From Candidatus Zipacnadia bacterium (GTDB lineage Bacteria > Armatimonadota > Zipacnadia > Zipacnadales > UBA5352), in assembly GCA_029821635.1 (NCBI GenBank), contig JALGSW010000038.1, positions 1-33,524 of the forward strand: a stretch of 33,524 bases of DNA. Direction: 5' to 3'. This document shows, in pieces, positions 27,482 to 33,524 of the stretch. Both the position numbers and the translations under genes were made by a program. The notes beneath the pieces were generated by a model that saw only the letters and a program-made list of their open reading frames with translations, did not search any database and had not been told where the DNA came from. The first letter of the stretch is position 1. Each line of letters starts with the position of its first letter.

Positions 27482-27575
27482 GTACGCAGGATTCGCGCGC
27501 TGCTGCCGCGAAAGGAGACGAACTCCGAGCCCGAGCACGGCCGGGCCGGCGCCTCATCCGCGGAGGAGAGAGCTC

Positions 27576-30500
27576 ATGCGTCTGACCGCCACGTTCATCG
27601 GCCTGCTGGTCCTCACGCCCATCTTCGCGTCCGCGGCCGGCGAGCTGCCGCAGTTCGACCCGGAAACGATGATGCGCTCGTCAGAGCTCGCGCGCGGCAT
27701 GACCGGCTACGGCCTGACCGTCTTCCAGGGCGCAGAGATCACGCGCTTCGACGTTGAGATCCTCGGCGTGCTGTCGAAGGCGAACCTTGGCGAGGACCTG
27801 GTCCTCATCGAGGTCACCTCCGGCCCGGTCGTCGAGCGCGAGTCGGGCATCATCGGCGGAATGAGCGGCAGCCCCGTCTACGTCGGCGGCAGGCTCATCG
27901 GCGCGATCGCCTACGGCTGGGGCTTCCTCCATGAGGCCATCGGCGGCGTCACGCCGATCGAGGCGATGCTCACGCCCTACGCAACGAAGCAGGCGCGCCT
28001 GCCCGACGACCATCCCGCCCGCGGCGTGATGCTGGATGGACGTTGGATTGAGGAGGCGCGTATCGCGGCCTCCGGCCCGGCCTTCGCCGATGACTCGACT
28101 ATCATGATGACCCCCGTCAGCCCGATCATCAGCGTGGCCGGGATGGAGGAGCAGGGGATGAAGCGGCTCGAGGCGATCTTCGGGCCGCACGGCCTGCAGA
28201 CCATGCCCGGCCCCGGCCGCCTCGACAATGGCATGGACGTGCAGCTCGAGCCGGGATCCGCCATCGGCGTGAAGCTCATGGACGGCGACTTCGACGTCTC
28301 CGCCATCGGCACCGTCACCTGGCGCAGCGGCGATCACGTGCTCGCATTCGGCCATCCGCTGATGGAGATCGGCCCGGTGAACATCCCCGTGACCACCGCC
28401 TGGGTGCTCGACTTCCTGCCCTCGATGCAGCGCTCCAACAAGCTCTCGTCGCCAATGAAGATCGTCGGCTCGCTGGTCAACGACGGTTCGTGGTCGATCG
28501 CCGCCGAGGTGGGCGGTGAGGCCCCGATGATCCCTGCCACCTTCACCGTCACCGACGAGGACAGCGGCCGCGCGAACACCTTCAACGTGCAGGTCGCCCG
28601 GCACGAGCTGCTCACCTCCGGGCTGCTCATGTCCGCGCTGGACTCGGCCCTTGCCGCGGGCGTCAACGTCGGTGGCGAGGGCATCGCCAGCCTCGACTTC
28701 AAGCTCGTGGGCGATGGCGGCACGGTCATCAGCCGGCACGACACGCTCTGGCACCCCGGGTCCCTCTACGTCGTCGGTTCCTGGGTCGATGAGGCGCTCT
28801 ACTACCTCACCGAGAATCGCTTCGACCCCCAGCAGCCTCAGTCGCTGAGCGTGTCGGTGAGCGTTCGCGATGAGGAGAAGCTGGCGGCCATCGAGCGCGT
28901 CTACACCGATCAGAGCGTCGCCCGGGCCGGTGAGGAGCTGACTGTCCACGTCGTCATGCGGCCCGACGGCGGCGAGCGTTTTGAGAAGACCGTGAGCTTC
29001 ACGATGCCCGAGGACCTGCCCAAGGGCACGCTGCGCGTCGGCGCGGCCGGGGGCGGCGACGAGTACTCCATCCGCAGCTACCTCCGCCTGCTGATGCCGC
29101 AGATCGACAGCCTCGAGGACATCGCGAAGGTCATCGAGACGATGAAGCGCTCCGACCAGCTCTACGTCGCCGTGGCCATTCCCGAGGTCGTCATCGGCTT
29201 CGAAGGTCAGGAACTGCCCGCCGCTCCCGCCAGCGCCGTCCGCATCTTCTCCGAGGACAATCGGAGCTACCTCACCGCCGGTTACACCGAGGTCAGCGGC
29301 ACCTTCGACAGCGACTACTACCTCTACGGCTGGGAGAGCCTCCGCCTGCCCACGGAGAACCAGCAGGGCGAACGCGGTAAGGTCAGGCCCAGCGACGAGT
29401 CCGATGACTACGAGGCCTCGACCACCGTCCGCGTGGGCGACCGCGCGCTGGAGAAGTTGTGGTGGGCCGCCTCCGCCATCGACGCGGACATCCGTCCATT
29501 GCAGGCCGAGGACCTGCCGGGCGCCGACCTCACGCCGGAGAAGCCCGTACTTGAGGGCGAGGCGGAAGACACCGAGGCAGTCGCGGACGATGAGGAGGAA
29601 GCCGCGGAGGACGAGAGCGAGGACGAGTCAGGCGACCACCCTGAGGCCGATGGCGAGGCGCTGGCCCGCGGCCTGCAGAGCCTCGCGCACAGCACCGGCG
29701 ATGAGTTCGAGGAGGGGAAGACCGAGGGCACGATGGTCCGCAGCGACGGCGCCGTAGTGCTCGCACCGCGCGCGCAGCTCATCGCGAAGCTCCCCGAGCC
29801 CTCCGCCTGGAGCATCGCCGCCGACGGCGACGGCGTCTGGATCGGCACCGCCAACCCCGGCCGCGTCTACCACTGGACCCCCGACTCCGAGGCGAAGGTC
29901 ATCTGCGACACCGGCTCGCTGATGGTGCTCTCGCTCCTGCCGATGGGCGATGGGACGGTCCTGGCCGGCACCGCGCCGGGTGGTCGCGTCCTTCAGATCG
30001 CCGCCGACGGCTCGATCGCGCGCGAGTGGGACCTGGACGCCGACTGGGTCTGGTCGCTCGAGCGCGACGGCGCCGGCCTGCTCGCAGGCACCGGCCCCGA
30101 CGGCGCCATCTACCGCCTCGGCGATGAGGCAACCTTCTTCACGCGCATCAGCCAGCCGCACGTCTTCGACCTGCTCTACACCGGCGAGGTGCTCTACGCC
30201 GCCGGTGGTGAAAACGAGGGCGGGGTCTTCGAGATCGGCCCGAGGGGCAGCATCCGCGACGTCTTCGGCGCCGATGAGGACTCCTGCACAGCCATCGCGC
30301 TTGCCGACGGCGGCCGGCTGATCGTCGCCACCGCCGAGGACGGGAAGATCTACGTGGTCGAGCCCAACGGCAGCCACGTCGAGGCGTACGAGGCCGATGA
30401 GAACGTGCTCGACGTGGCCTTCGCCGCCGGTCATGCCTGGGCCGCCACCACCGACGAGGGCAAGATCGTCGCGCTCGATGCCCGCAATAACACTGCGATC

Positions 30501-31565
30501 GCCCACCGGGACACCGCCAGCAATCAGTTCACGCGTATCTCAGCCGGCGAAGGCGCGGTCTACGCCGTCACCGCCAGCCCGACCCGCGTCTGGCGCCTGG
30601 ACACCGCCTCCATCACCGAGGGCACTTTCGTCTCCGAGCCGTTGGACGCCGAGCGCATGAGTCGCTGGGCTCGCATGAGCTGGGACGCGACCGTCCCCGA
30701 GGGCGCTGCGCTGGAGATCGACGCGCGCTCGGGTAACGGTGGGGTGCCCGCCGATCAGGCCTGGAGCGCCTGGACCGGCGAGCTGACCGAGTCGGGCGGG
30801 CGCATCAGCCCGCCGGACGCGCGCTACCTGCAGTACCGCCTGCGCATGGCGGGCCAACCTGCCGATGAACTCCAGGTCCGTCGCGTAGAAGTGTTGTACA
30901 TGACGCGCAACCAGAAGCCTACGCTGGAGCTCGACGACCCGGACCCCGGTGAAGCCATCCGCGCCGAATACGAACTCTCCTGGACCGCCGACGACGACGA
31001 TGACGACACGCTGCTGACGACGATCTTCCATCGCGCCGAGGGCTCGGACGAGTGGGTCGAGATCACCACGCTTGAGGACGAGGACAGCTTCGACTGGGAC
31101 ACAACCGAGATCGACGGCGGGCTCTACGACCTGCGCTTCGTCACCAGCGACGAGCCGAGCAACCCGACCGGCGCCCTGAGCGAGGAGCTGGTGGTCGAGG
31201 GCATCCTCGTGGACAACGGCTACCCGAAGCTGATCCTCGTGAGCAAGCCGCGGATCGGCCATGCGGACAGAACGCTCTCGGGCATGGCCATCGACGAACT
31301 GACCCGCATCACCTCGATCGACTGGACCTTCGCCGCGAAGGAGCTCTGGCGCACGGCGCTGCCCGATGACGGCCTGCTGGACTCGCGGCGCGAGCTGTTC
31401 CGCGTTGACCTGCCGGAACTCCCGGAGGACGAGACGTCGGTGCGGATCCGCATCCGCGACGCCGCGGGGAACGTGACCGTCGAGACGATCCCGCTGATCG
31501 AGCAGCCGCAGGAGGAGGACGCCGACACCGGCCCGCTGCAGGCCGAGGCGGGCGCGCGGGGCTGA
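27576..31565 (+). CDS. Large secreted SpoIVB-type (S55) peptidase-domain protein with acidic linker, propeller-like region and C-terminal domain
   Basis: ATG 27576 with SD GGAGGAG; signal peptide MRLTATFIGLLVLTPIFASAAG; S55-like SGIIGGMSGSPVYVGGRLIGAIAYGW and HVLAFGHPLMEIG; acidic EGEAEDTEAVADDEEEAAEDESEDESGD linker; repeated G.V.A.T..G-type propeller blades. Confidence 0.8.
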   Translation: MRLTATFIGLLVLTPIFASAAGELPQFDPETMMRSSELARGMTGYGLTVFQGAEITRFDVEILGVLSKANLGEDLVLIEVTSGPVVERESGIIGGMSGSPVYVGGRLIGAIAYGWGFLHEAIGGVTPIEAMLTPYATKQARLPDDHPARGVMLDGRWIEEARIAASGPAFADDSTIMMTPVSPIISVAGMEEQGMKRLEAIFGPHGLQTMPGPGRLDNGMDVQLEPGSAIGVKLMDGDFDVSAIGTVTWRSGDHVLAFGHPLMEIGPVNIPVTTAWVLDFLPSMQRSNKLSSPMKIVGSLVNDGSWSIAAEVGGEAPMIPATFTVTDEDSGRANTFNVQVARHELLTSGLLMSALDSALAAGVNVGGEGIASLDFKLVGDGGTVISRHDTLWHPGSLYVVGSWVDEALYYLTENRFDPQQPQSLSVSVSVRDEEKLAAIERVYTDQSVARAGEELTVHVVMRPDGGERFEKTVSFTMPEDLPKGTLRVGAAGGGDEYSIRSYLRLLMPQIDSLEDIAKVIETMKRSDQLYVAVAIPEVVIGFEGQELPAAPASAVRIFSEDNRSYLTAGYTEVSGTFDSDYYLYGWESLRLPTENQQGERGKVRPSDESDDYEASTTVRVGDRALEKLWWAASAIDADIRPLQAEDLPGADLTPEKPVLEGEAEDTEAVADDEEEAAEDESEDESGDHPEADGEALARGLQSLAHSTGDEFEEGKTEGTMVRSDGAVVLAPRAQLIAKLPEPSAWSIAADGDGVWIGTANPGRVYHWTPDSEAKVICDTGSLMVLSLLPMGDGTVLAGTAPGGRVLQIAADGSIAREWDLDADWVWSLERDGAGLLAGTGPDGAIYRLGDEATFFTRISQPHVFDLLYTGEVLYAAGGENEGGVFEIGPRGSIRDVFGADEDSCTAIALADGGRLIVATAEDGKIYVVEPNGSHVEAYEADENVLDVAFAAGHAWAATTDEGKIVALDARNNTAIAHRDTASNQFTRISAGEGAVYAVTASPTRVWRLDTASITEGTFVSEPLDAERMSRWARMSWDATVPEGAALEIDARSGNGGVPADQAWSAWTGELTESGGRISPPDARYLQYRLRMAGQPADELQVRRVEVLYMTRNQKPTLELDDPDPGEAIRAEYELSWTADDDDDDTLLTTIFHRAEGSDEWVEITTLEDEDSFDWDTTEIDGGLYDLRFVTSDEPSNPTGALSEELVVEGILVDNGYPKLILVSKPRIGHADRTLSGMAIDELTRITSIDWTFAAKELWRTALPDDGLLDSRRELFRVDLPELPEDETSVRIRIRDAAGNVTVETIPLIEQPQEEDADTGPLQAEAGARG

Positions 31566-31649
31566 CACCACCGAAGCCCGCAGGTCGTGGGAGAGGCCGA
31601 CCCCCGCGTCGGCCTGTGCCGTTGCCTTTACCGCCCGGGAGGCATGTCC

Positions 31650-32372
31650 ATGCCGAAGCAACTCCGCCCGCGCACCTTCCGCCGTGTGGACGAGCTGCTG
31701 CTGGAGAGCTACGGCCCGGTGCCGGACCACTCCGAGGGTCCGCTGAACTCGCTCATCCGCACGATCCTCTCGCAGAACACCACCGACGCAAGCTCCTTCC
31801 CGGCCTTCGAACGCCTGCGCGACCACTTCGGCGGCGACTGGGAGCTGGCGCTGGAGGCGGACCCGGACGCGTACGTGCCGCTGATCCAGGACGCGGGCCT
31901 CGCGCCGACGAAGAGTAAGCGCATCCACACGATCCTCCGCCAGCTCAAGGACGCGCGCGGCGAACTCTCGCTCGATCACGTCTGCGCGATGGATCAGGAC
32001 CGCGCCAACGACTACCTGCTGAGCTTCAAGGGCGTTGGCCCGAAGACGGCATCGATCGTGCTGCTGTTCGAGTGCGGGATGCCCTTCTTCCCGGTGGACA
32101 CACACATCCACCGCGTGACGCGGCGCCTTGGCTGGGTGGCGGAGAAGGCGACGGCGGAGCAGGCGCACGAGGTGCTGACGGATGCGATCCCGCCGGAGCT
32201 GCAGTACCGGCTGCACCTGAACCTGGTGACGCACGGCCGGCGAGCCTGCCACCCCACCCGCCCGGAGTGCCACGCCTGCCCCATCTCGCGCTTCTGCGCC
32301 GCGTACAGGGGCGGGACGGTGGAGGCGAAGAGTACACAGGACTTGCTTGACTTCTCGCCTCGAGGGAGGTAG
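31650..32372 (+). CDS. nth: Endonuclease III-family DNA glycosylase
   Basis: HhH LLSFKGVGPKTASIVLLFECGMPFFPVDTHIHRVTRRLG; Fe-S cluster C-x6-C-x2-C-x5-C (CHPTRPECHACPISRFC); SD GGGAGG 7 nt before ATG 31650. Confidence 0.9.
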   Translation: MPKQLRPRTFRRVDELLLESYGPVPDHSEGPLNSLIRTILSQNTTDASSFPAFERLRDHFGGDWELALEADPDAYVPLIQDAGLAPTKSKRIHTILRQLKDARGELSLDHVCAMDQDRANDYLLSFKGVGPKTASIVLLFECGMPFFPVDTHIHRVTRRLGWVAEKATAEQAHEVLTDAIPPELQYRLHLNLVTHGRRACHPTRPECHACPISRFCAAYRGGTVEAKSTQDLLDFSPRGR

Positions 32373-32375
32373 ACT
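32347..32375 (+). promoter_or_regulatory. Sigma70-type promoter overlapping the 3' end of nth
   Basis: TTGACT-N17-TAGACT upstream of the AbrB-type antitoxin gene. Confidence 0.55.
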
Positions 32376-32415
32376 TCTTTCGGATAATCAGATTATGCGA
32401 ATAGTGGAGACTCCG

Positions 32416-32706
32416 ATGGCGATTGTCAAGGTGCGTGACAGAGCCCAGATAACGCTGCCCGCTGACATAAGGGACGAGTTGGGGATCGAGGAGGGAGACT
32501 TCCTCGAAGCAGTAGTCGAGGACCGGCGCGTTGTCCTCGTGCCGCAGAAGCTTGTTCCGAAGTTCGAGGAAGTCGAGCTTTCCGACGAGGGGGAGCGGAT
32601 GCTCGACGAGGCGGAGGCGGACGTCGCCGCCGGTCGGGTGCGCGAGTATGCGGGCGTTGAGGACCTCATAGCTGACCTGCACAACAATGCGACTGCTGGC
32701 GACTGA
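32416..32706 (+). CDS. AbrB/MazE/SpoVT-type antitoxin
   Basis: MAIVKVRDRAQITLPADIRDELGIEEGDFLEAVVEDRRVVLVPQKL; SD GGAGA before ATG 32416 (ATG 32395 also possible). Confidence 0.85.
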   Translation: MAIVKVRDRAQITLPADIRDELGIEEGDFLEAVVEDRRVVLVPQKLVPKFEEVELSDEGERMLDEAEADVAAGRVREYAGVEDLIADLHNNATAGD

Positions 32707-32944
32707 TCGCTTCCTGCGGGACTACGCGGACCTCCCCCACGATATCCGCGAGCGCGTGGACCGCAAGCTGCGGTACCTCGCGTCCGACCTGTCCCATCCC
32801 TCTCTGCGCGTGAAGCGTGTGCGCGGTCGTGACCGGGTGTATGAGGGCAGCGTGAACATGGATTATCGCTTCCTCTTCCGCATCGACGAGGATGTCTGCG
32901 TGCTTGAGAGGATCGGGCACCACAGCATCCTTGACAAGCGTTGA
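32687..32944 (+). CDS. RelE/YafQ-like toxin
   Basis: MRLLATDRFLRDYADLPHDIRERVDRKLRYLASDLSHPSLRVKRVRGRDRVYEGSVNMDYRFLFRIDEDVCVLERIGHHSIL; overlaps the antitoxin by 20 nt. Confidence 0.82.
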   Translation: MRLLATDRFLRDYADLPHDIRERVDRKLRYLASDLSHPSLRVKRVRGRDRVYEGSVNMDYRFLFRIDEDVCVLERIGHHSILDKR

Positions 32945-33015
32945 GGCTGGGCGGCTCTCGGTTGATGCAGGCCGCCGCTCAGCGACACGGGATCCGATTG
33001 CCGCGAATCTCGCCC

Positions 33016-33045
33016 TTGACTCCCCTCCCCACTTTCTGCTATTGT
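33016..33045 (+). promoter_or_regulatory. Sigma70-type promoter of the trp leader
   Basis: TTGACT-N18-TATTGT; predicted start of transcription near 33052, 7 nt before the leader ORF ATG. Confidence 0.65.
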
Positions 33046-33058
33046 CTACCACACTACC

Positions 33059-33130
33059 ATGATTACTGACTGTTGCAGCCATTCGGTCGTTACACTCTGG
33101 GCTTGGCGCTGGCGACTGCGAGTCGCTTAG
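33059..33130 (+). CDS. trpL: trp operon leader peptide (23 aa)
   Basis: ATG ATT ACT GAC TGT TGC AGC CAT TCG GTC GTT ACA CTC TGG GCT TGG CGC TGG CGA CTG CGA GTC GCT TAG = MITDCCSHSVVTLWAWRWRLRVA; three Trp codons in WAWRW; lies between promoter and attenuator upstream of trpE. Confidence 0.85.
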   Translation: MITDCCSHSVVTLWAWRWRLRVA

Positions 33131-33133
33131 CGT

Positions 33134-33317
33134 CTGGTTCGCGCTGCAACAAAGATCGGAAAGAACCAGGCCGCGGGTGGCTCGCATTACCCCTCGCGGC
33201 TTGATCGGTGTACCAGGAGGCCACATCCGGCGCCTCCTCCATAGCGCAAAGACCCATCCGGCGCACTCCCCCCGCAGGCCGCGGGCTTCATCCAACTGAA
33301 GCCGCCGCGGCCTTTTT
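33134..33317 (+). promoter_or_regulatory. Candidate trp transcription attenuator (mutually exclusive hairpins)
   Basis: CTGGTTC (33134-33140):GAACCAG (33163-33169); GCCGCGGGT (33170-33178):ACCCctCGCGGC (33189-33200); 33193-33202:33276-33285 (10 bp incl. 2 G-U); terminator 33276-33313. Confidence 0.75.
33276..33317 (+). terminator. Intrinsic terminator within the trp leader
   Basis: AGGCCGCGGGCTTCA-TCCAAC-TGAAGCC(gc)CGCGGCCT followed by TTTTT (33313-33317); 15-bp stem with one 2-nt bulge. Confidence 0.85.
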
Positions 33318-33438
33318 CATTACCGCACCACGAAGTGACCGGCACCACCTGGTGAGAAGCTCCGAGCCCCGGCGGCGAGATGACACACTCCACCCGCGCG
33401 TCATGCGCGACTTCATCTCACTATCGGAGGTCCGGACA

Positions 33439-33524
33439 ATGTACACGCCGACGCTCTACGAGTTCGTGAAGAAAGCCGACGAGGGGAACCTCATCCCCGT
33501 CTACCGCGAGTTCGTCGCCGACAC
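33439..33524 (+). CDS. trpE: Anthranilate synthase component I, N-terminus (3' truncated by window)
   Basis: MYTPTLYEFVKKADEGNLIPVYREFVADT matches the conserved TrpE N-terminus; SD GGAGG 8 nt upstream. Confidence 0.85.
   Translation, partial: MYTPTLYEFVKKADEGNLIPVYREFVAD

Follow-up and report, generated by a model that had tools for sequence, protein, structure and literature searches.

Ribosome-mediated attenuation of trp operons is a textbook mechanism. In the trp attenuator of E. coli and Salmonella (trpL, RF00513), a short Trp-rich open reading frame (ORF) precedes trpE with a terminator before the operon, the Trp codons lie in the 5' arm of a hairpin, and an alternative 2:3 pairing is mutually exclusive with that hairpin. 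The E. coli trp leader is built from four segments, of which 3 and 4 pair to form the terminator, and the operon also has the TrpR repressor. The segments of the his attenuator are named A-F. In Salmonella and E. coli, the his leader carries an extra hairpin between the leader hairpin and the terminator, which has been argued to hold basal read-through low, a task that E. coli trp leaves to TrpR (PMC1183508). Leaderless forms of trpL have also been described. Streptomyces trpL1 (MFAHSTRNWWWTAHPAAH) precedes a monocistronic trpE and has two hairpins and a U-rich stretch (PMC8079986). Meanwhile, in Sinorhizobium meliloti the 5' end of the trpL RNA (rnTrpL) is at the trpL ATG, the 14-residue peptide has reported trans functions, and trpE(G) is under attenuation control alone (PMC7298713). 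For Naville and Gautheret (2010), the known amino-acid leader peptides were confined to Proteobacteria and Actinobacteria, to which they added a hisS case from Firmicutes (PMC2965389), and a 2013 survey proposed a gammaproteobacterial origin for the Rfam attenuators, with few transfers (PMC3766115).

The locus analysed here belongs to a 5.0-Mb Armatimonadota MAG; an earlier note on this DNA had allowed that its host might fall outside Proteobacteria and Actinobacteria, which is indeed the case. The window, by which we mean the whole stretch of 33,524 nucleotides, is the end of a contig (C64), and its endonuclease III-like protein shares 82% identity with one from Armatimonadetes bacterium UBA5352, a member of the same genus. 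The features of the putative attenuator are as follows.

33016-33045, + strand: promoter-like site, TTGACT + 18-nt spacer + TG-n-TATTGT (motif scan)
33059-33130, + strand: trpL leader ORF, ATG to TAG, 23 codons, MITDCCSHSVVTLWAWRWRLRVA (translation, family comparison)
33098-33100, 33104-33106 and 33110-33112, + strand: TGG codons of trpL, ORF positions 14, 16 and 18
33098-33117, + strand: segment 1, containing the Trp codons; pairs with 2
33118-33140, + strand: segment 2, spanning the last trpL codons, the stop and CTGGTTC; pairs with 1 or 3
33163-33185, + strand: segment 3; pairs with 2 or 4
33191-33203, + strand: segment 4; pairs with 3 or 5
33275-33289, + strand: segment 5, forming the terminator's 5' arm; pairs with 4 or 6
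33298-33317, + strand: segment 6, 3' arm of the terminator and T tract (33313-33317)
33426-33524, + strand: start of trpE, ATG 33439-33441, with a GGAGG ribosome site at 33426-33430; the contig end cuts the gene

The ORF has exactly the coordinates and translation that the earlier note had given it, and the promoter, intrinsic terminator and trpE that it had placed around the ORF are likewise present. The promoter hexamers are TTGACT (33016-33021) and TATTGT (33040-33045), the second preceded by TG, and the match is the only one within 32940-33524 (mean of 0.0 in shuffles). From the position of the promoter, the RNA is predicted to start at about 33050-33053. There is no Shine-Dalgarno sequence before trpL, which, given this predicted start, would be leaderless or nearly so. 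The terminator at 33276-33317 consists of the hairpin AGGCCGCGGGCTTC / GAAGCCGCCGCGGCCT followed by T; a simple terminator scan missed it, probably owing to a bulge in the stem. The start of trpE lies 308 nt beyond the leader ORF, and the 28 trpE codons in the window show 96% identity to TrpE of UBA5352. The gene resumes on another contig of this assembly, at the edge of C137, where the C-terminal 126 residues of trpE (97.6% identity to UBA5352) are followed by a complete trpG (91%). An assembly gap between the window end (33524) and C137 thus divides trpE, with residues ~29-375 absent, and PF04715 is unmatched in this genome because the window holds just 28 trpE codons. Behind the leader of UBA5352, the operon comprises trpE, trpG, an ORF in the trpD position, trpC, trpB and trpA, and in G019, of family f6, trpE is followed by trpG, trpD, trpB and trpA.

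The promoter, the frame and the clustered Trp codons are kept in all nine other genomes of the family (three from the genus and six further). TTGAC and TA...T are found in 10/10 family members, 13-20 nt ahead of the ATG. The alignment of relatives that the earlier note had proposed separates the parts of the peptide: in 9/9 family genomes the TGG codons and frame stay while the flanking N-terminal codons drift, and the differences in trpL length are multiples of three. The three other members of the genus share the pattern MITDCC[SR]H.VV..WAWRWRLRVA, and further leader peptides are listed below.

G004, leader peptide: MNDECRCEPVVVDIWGWWWP
G005, leader peptide: MNTDCCRHSAVCLWAWRWRLRVA
G006, leader peptide: MTTHSCRQTVVRWAWRWRERAA
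G007, leader peptide: MTTDCCRYSVAYLWAWRWRGRVA
G008, leader peptide: MTNTPDRKLVAVAGLWAWRWPQRVV
G009, leader peptide: MSTHCCRQTVVRWAWRWRQRAA

In G004 the peptide has gained Trp residues (WGWWWP) although helix 1:2 loses pairs, indicating that the coding is constrained in addition to the RNA folding.

The six conserved segments allow two alternative states, 1:2, 3:4 and 5:6 on the one hand and 2:3 and 4:5 on the other, and both show double substitutions. In the window, the duplexes have energies of -25 (1:2), -33 (2:3), -23 (3:4), -20 (4:5) and -24 kcal/mol (5:6), and all five helices are available in 10/10 family genomes. Over the ten family sequences, 2:3 and 4:5 are jointly 96.3% paired and 1:2, 3:4 and 5:6 jointly 92.3%, with six doubly changed pairs each, several of these changes coming from one genome (G004 or G008). 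Slid controls give 32-52% paired and 0-3 doubly changed pairs; as the structure was taken from the window sequence, this control favours it, and the double changes are the stronger part of the comparison. At column pair 24/63, for example, five genomes have A-U, two G-U and three G-C. Pairs were counted on the joined segments without linkers, since the alignment misplaces one gap in segment 2 (G004, G006, G007 and G009). In single-sequence MFE folds, the 2:3 state is adopted by some relatives and the 1:2 / 3:4 state by others. The family terminators were taken from the alignment, replacing an automatic search that picked an incorrect hairpin in both G004 and G009 and, at some f3 loci, hairpins lying far away; the T tracts behind the hairpin are poor in G006 and G009.

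The locus thus shares with the E. coli and Salmonella trp attenuator the Trp-rich ORF and terminator ahead of trpE, the Trp codons in a hairpin 5' arm and the mutually exclusive 2:3 pairing, but there are differences. An extra conserved hairpin, 3:4, precedes terminator 5:6 and departs from the four-segment design, TrpR is lacking, the ORF is almost leaderless, and no Rfam model matches. The extra hairpin recalls the his attenuator, as do the two antiterminator pairings (2:3 and 4:5) competing with three hairpins. This likeness is one of architecture only, because the his system has His codons, a different sequence and a host of another phylum, whereas the control codons of the window are Trp. 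The six-segment plan therefore appears to resemble the his-type relay rather than the four-segment E. coli trp leader, with use of 4:5 in the cell being a prediction. Both leaderless systems are more distant: peptide and RNA of Streptomyces trpL1 share only the Trp cluster with the window, and S. meliloti belongs to another phylum.

We consider the locus very probably a ribosome-mediated transcription attenuator of the trp operon, and we infer its switching, that is, the translation of trpL, the stalling, the order of folding and the response to Trp. RNA polymerase would start near 33052 and a ribosome would load onto the almost leaderless trpL, stalling at codons 14-18 when charged tRNA-Trp is scarce. 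Counted from the first base of the A-site codon, a ribosome footprint extends ~14 nt downstream. A ribosome at the first Trp codon would accordingly cover the RNA to ~33112, leaving segment 2 free to pair with 3; segment 4 would then be free to hold segment 5, and read-through into trpE would follow. A ribosome at the stop codon would instead cover segment 2, allowing 3:4 and subsequently 5:6 to form, with termination at 33313-33317. If there is no translation, 1:2 would form, then 3:4 and 5:6, and termination would likewise result. Freeing of segment 2 by a ribosome at the first Trp codon and its covering by one at the stop codon is the geometry that an attenuator needs.

When the ribosome was masked in equilibrium folding, the two states of the window could not be told apart, its completed terminator forming equally with the ribosome at the Trp codons (0.91) and at the stop (0.92). 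Since the completed terminator wins either way, the switch would have to be kinetic. The co-transcriptional test used partition-function folding before segment 6 emerges, at 32 loci, with the freed segment shuffled as control. Stalling sequestered the 5' arm of the terminator more than did a ribosome at the stop codon (mean difference 0.19, shuffled 0.12), and the difference exceeded the locus's own shuffle mean in 25/32 loci, a modest effect. An earlier, uncontrolled version of the test (24 vs 1) was biased, because masking more RNA always removes partners. The mutually exclusive pairings are conserved, and their dependence on the ribosome is a prediction supported by this folding.

The modest shift in pairing of the terminator arm also fits a variant that we regard as unlikely but deserving of some weight, namely a trp attenuator in which only the choice between 1:2 and 2:3 answers to the ribosome and 4:5 is unused. 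The terminator would then be reached otherwise (by pausing, Rho or another contact with segment 5), and the six-segment relay would have been over-read from repeats of one GC-rich motif. Indeed, AGGCCGCGGG is common to segments 3 and 5, so that a segment 4 that pairs with 3 also pairs with 5. However, 4:5 taken alone keeps 95.5% of its pairs across the family and includes three doubly changed pairs, which argues against this variant.

Leaders of the same general kind occur elsewhere in the phylum. The sample comprised 110 trpE upstream regions of 700 nt from 41 Armatimonadota family groups, and an ORF counted as a leader if it was 8-60 codons long and a stretch of 7 codons held three or more Trp, the last of them no more than 12 codons from the stop. 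Such an ORF is found in 36/110 regions, compared with a mean of 0.57 of 110 (~0.5%; maximum 3 over 30 rounds) in dinucleotide-preserving shuffles and 0/110 on the reverse strand of the same regions, bearing out the earlier note's claim that the Trp clustering is unlikely by chance; the 36 loci are mutually related and do not represent 36 independent events. A control 700 nt farther upstream gave 3/43, although true leaders can reach that far, as in G037, where the leader lies 773 nt ahead of the trpE domain match. The leader-bearing families number 16 of 41 (f1, f3, f4, f5, f6, f7, f9, f10, f11, f16, f22, f23, f24, f25, f37 and f40). This tally omits f21, whose one match (G136) is likely due to chance, being 577 nt upstream with no promoter and a 'terminator' within trpE; a second match in G019 (f6) is also regarded as chance. 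Four more families (f2, f28, f39 and f45) are candidates, having an ORF with two Trp and a promoter in place, and many, such as f17, f29, f21 and most of f45, have no such leader by the same criterion. In f29, a tRNA gene lies shortly upstream of trpE (L075 533-605, L076 494-567 and L078 533-606), and no Trp leader was found there.

Among 37 ORFs having three or more Trp, 29 directly follow a TTGAC-N17..20-TAnnnT promoter, and in these the -10 box is mostly 6-13 nt from the start codon. Given that in Streptomyces transcripts start on average 6.3 nt from the -10 box (PMC8079986), the start codons would fall 0 to ~8 nt from the RNA 5' end, and the leader ORFs of the phylum would thus be leaderless or nearly so. 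Long TTG-initiated leader ORFs (e.g. LTPPSLSDMFHYTTMITDCC) were rejected as artefacts, the TTG being the opening of the -35 box TTGACA. A terminator candidate follows the leader at 35/36 loci, compared with 40/74 among loci that have no leader ORF, a contrast in favor of the attenuator reading; on the other side, terminators do precede many trpE genes that have no leader. The distance from leader stop to terminator end is 49-112 nt in most other families, similar to E. coli, and ~160-190 nt in f1 and two f4 genomes.

Peptides of different families have little in common beyond the Trp cluster, often WWW or WxWxW. This bears on whether trans action of the leader peptide or of the terminated small RNA, like that of Sinorhizobium peTrpL and rnTrpL, is the main function, with attenuation secondary. 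Such a role would account for the fairly conserved N-terminus (M.TDCC) in and near the genus, which stalling alone does not need, but with the remaining peptide differing between families we judge it quite improbable. Finally, that trpL is a chance ORF in GC-rich DNA poor in stop codons, its TGG triplets serving only the RNA fold, would agree with the position of the Trp codons inside helix 1:2 but can practically be dismissed given the excess over shuffles, a frame that survives indels, the Trp codons gained in G004 while 1:2 pairs break, and a search that found no relatives with a lost frame and a kept fold.

Other regulators of trp genes were also sought. TrpR was found in 0/61 genomes by a search that was positive in E. 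coli, and TRAP (PF02081) in 0/31 genomes, with a positive B. subtilis control and the window's own genome being 87.6% complete. The Trp_leader model RF00513 had no match in the window at the gathering score, and 20 relatives likewise yielded none at E up to 1. No T-box (RF00230) or other Rfam element was detected at trpE in the window and the families searched; at the gathering score and at E up to 1 or 0.1, Rfam returned only tRNAs and chance matches. A T-box at trpE, suggested by GGGTGG...ACC around segments 3-4, was rejected for want of a model match. Elsewhere in the window's genome there are four T-box matches, and T-boxes occur in 54/61 relatives; T-boxes and Trp leader peptides thus coexist in this genome and its relatives.

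Directly upstream of the trp promoter is a toxin-antitoxin pair (32347-32944), in which a MazE/AbrB-type antitoxin (PF04014) overlaps a ParE-like toxin (PF05016). The stretch that separates the trp operon from the endonuclease III-like gene is a variable insertion spot, occupied by this pair in the window (31587-33016) and by other genes in UBA5352 (L002 8690-10900), one of which resembles a DNA methyltransferase by eye. Farther upstream, 27567-31565 encodes a protein of 1332 residues whose N-terminus carries a SpoIVB-type peptidase S55 domain.

The earlier note had proposed a new or poorly described instance of trp attenuation. The mechanism itself is already known, but no earlier report of it in Armatimonadota was found in the open-access literature. 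As far as the open literature shows, its presence in this phylum, its breadth there and the six-segment trp form are new. The Rfam models miss the Armatimonadota form of the leader. Leaders of one plan across the phylum, with promoter, leaderless Trp-rich ORF and terminator, bear on the question of age versus repeated origin. On balance, we lean toward a phylum-wide, leaderless or near-leaderless trp attenuator that operates without TrpR or TRAP and takes a six-segment, his-type form in the family of the window, such that the extra hairpin would track the absence of a repressor and not the amino acid. Leaders of differing length in a phylum lacking TrpR may provide a comparative test of the proposal that links the extra hairpin to basal read-through (PMC1183508).
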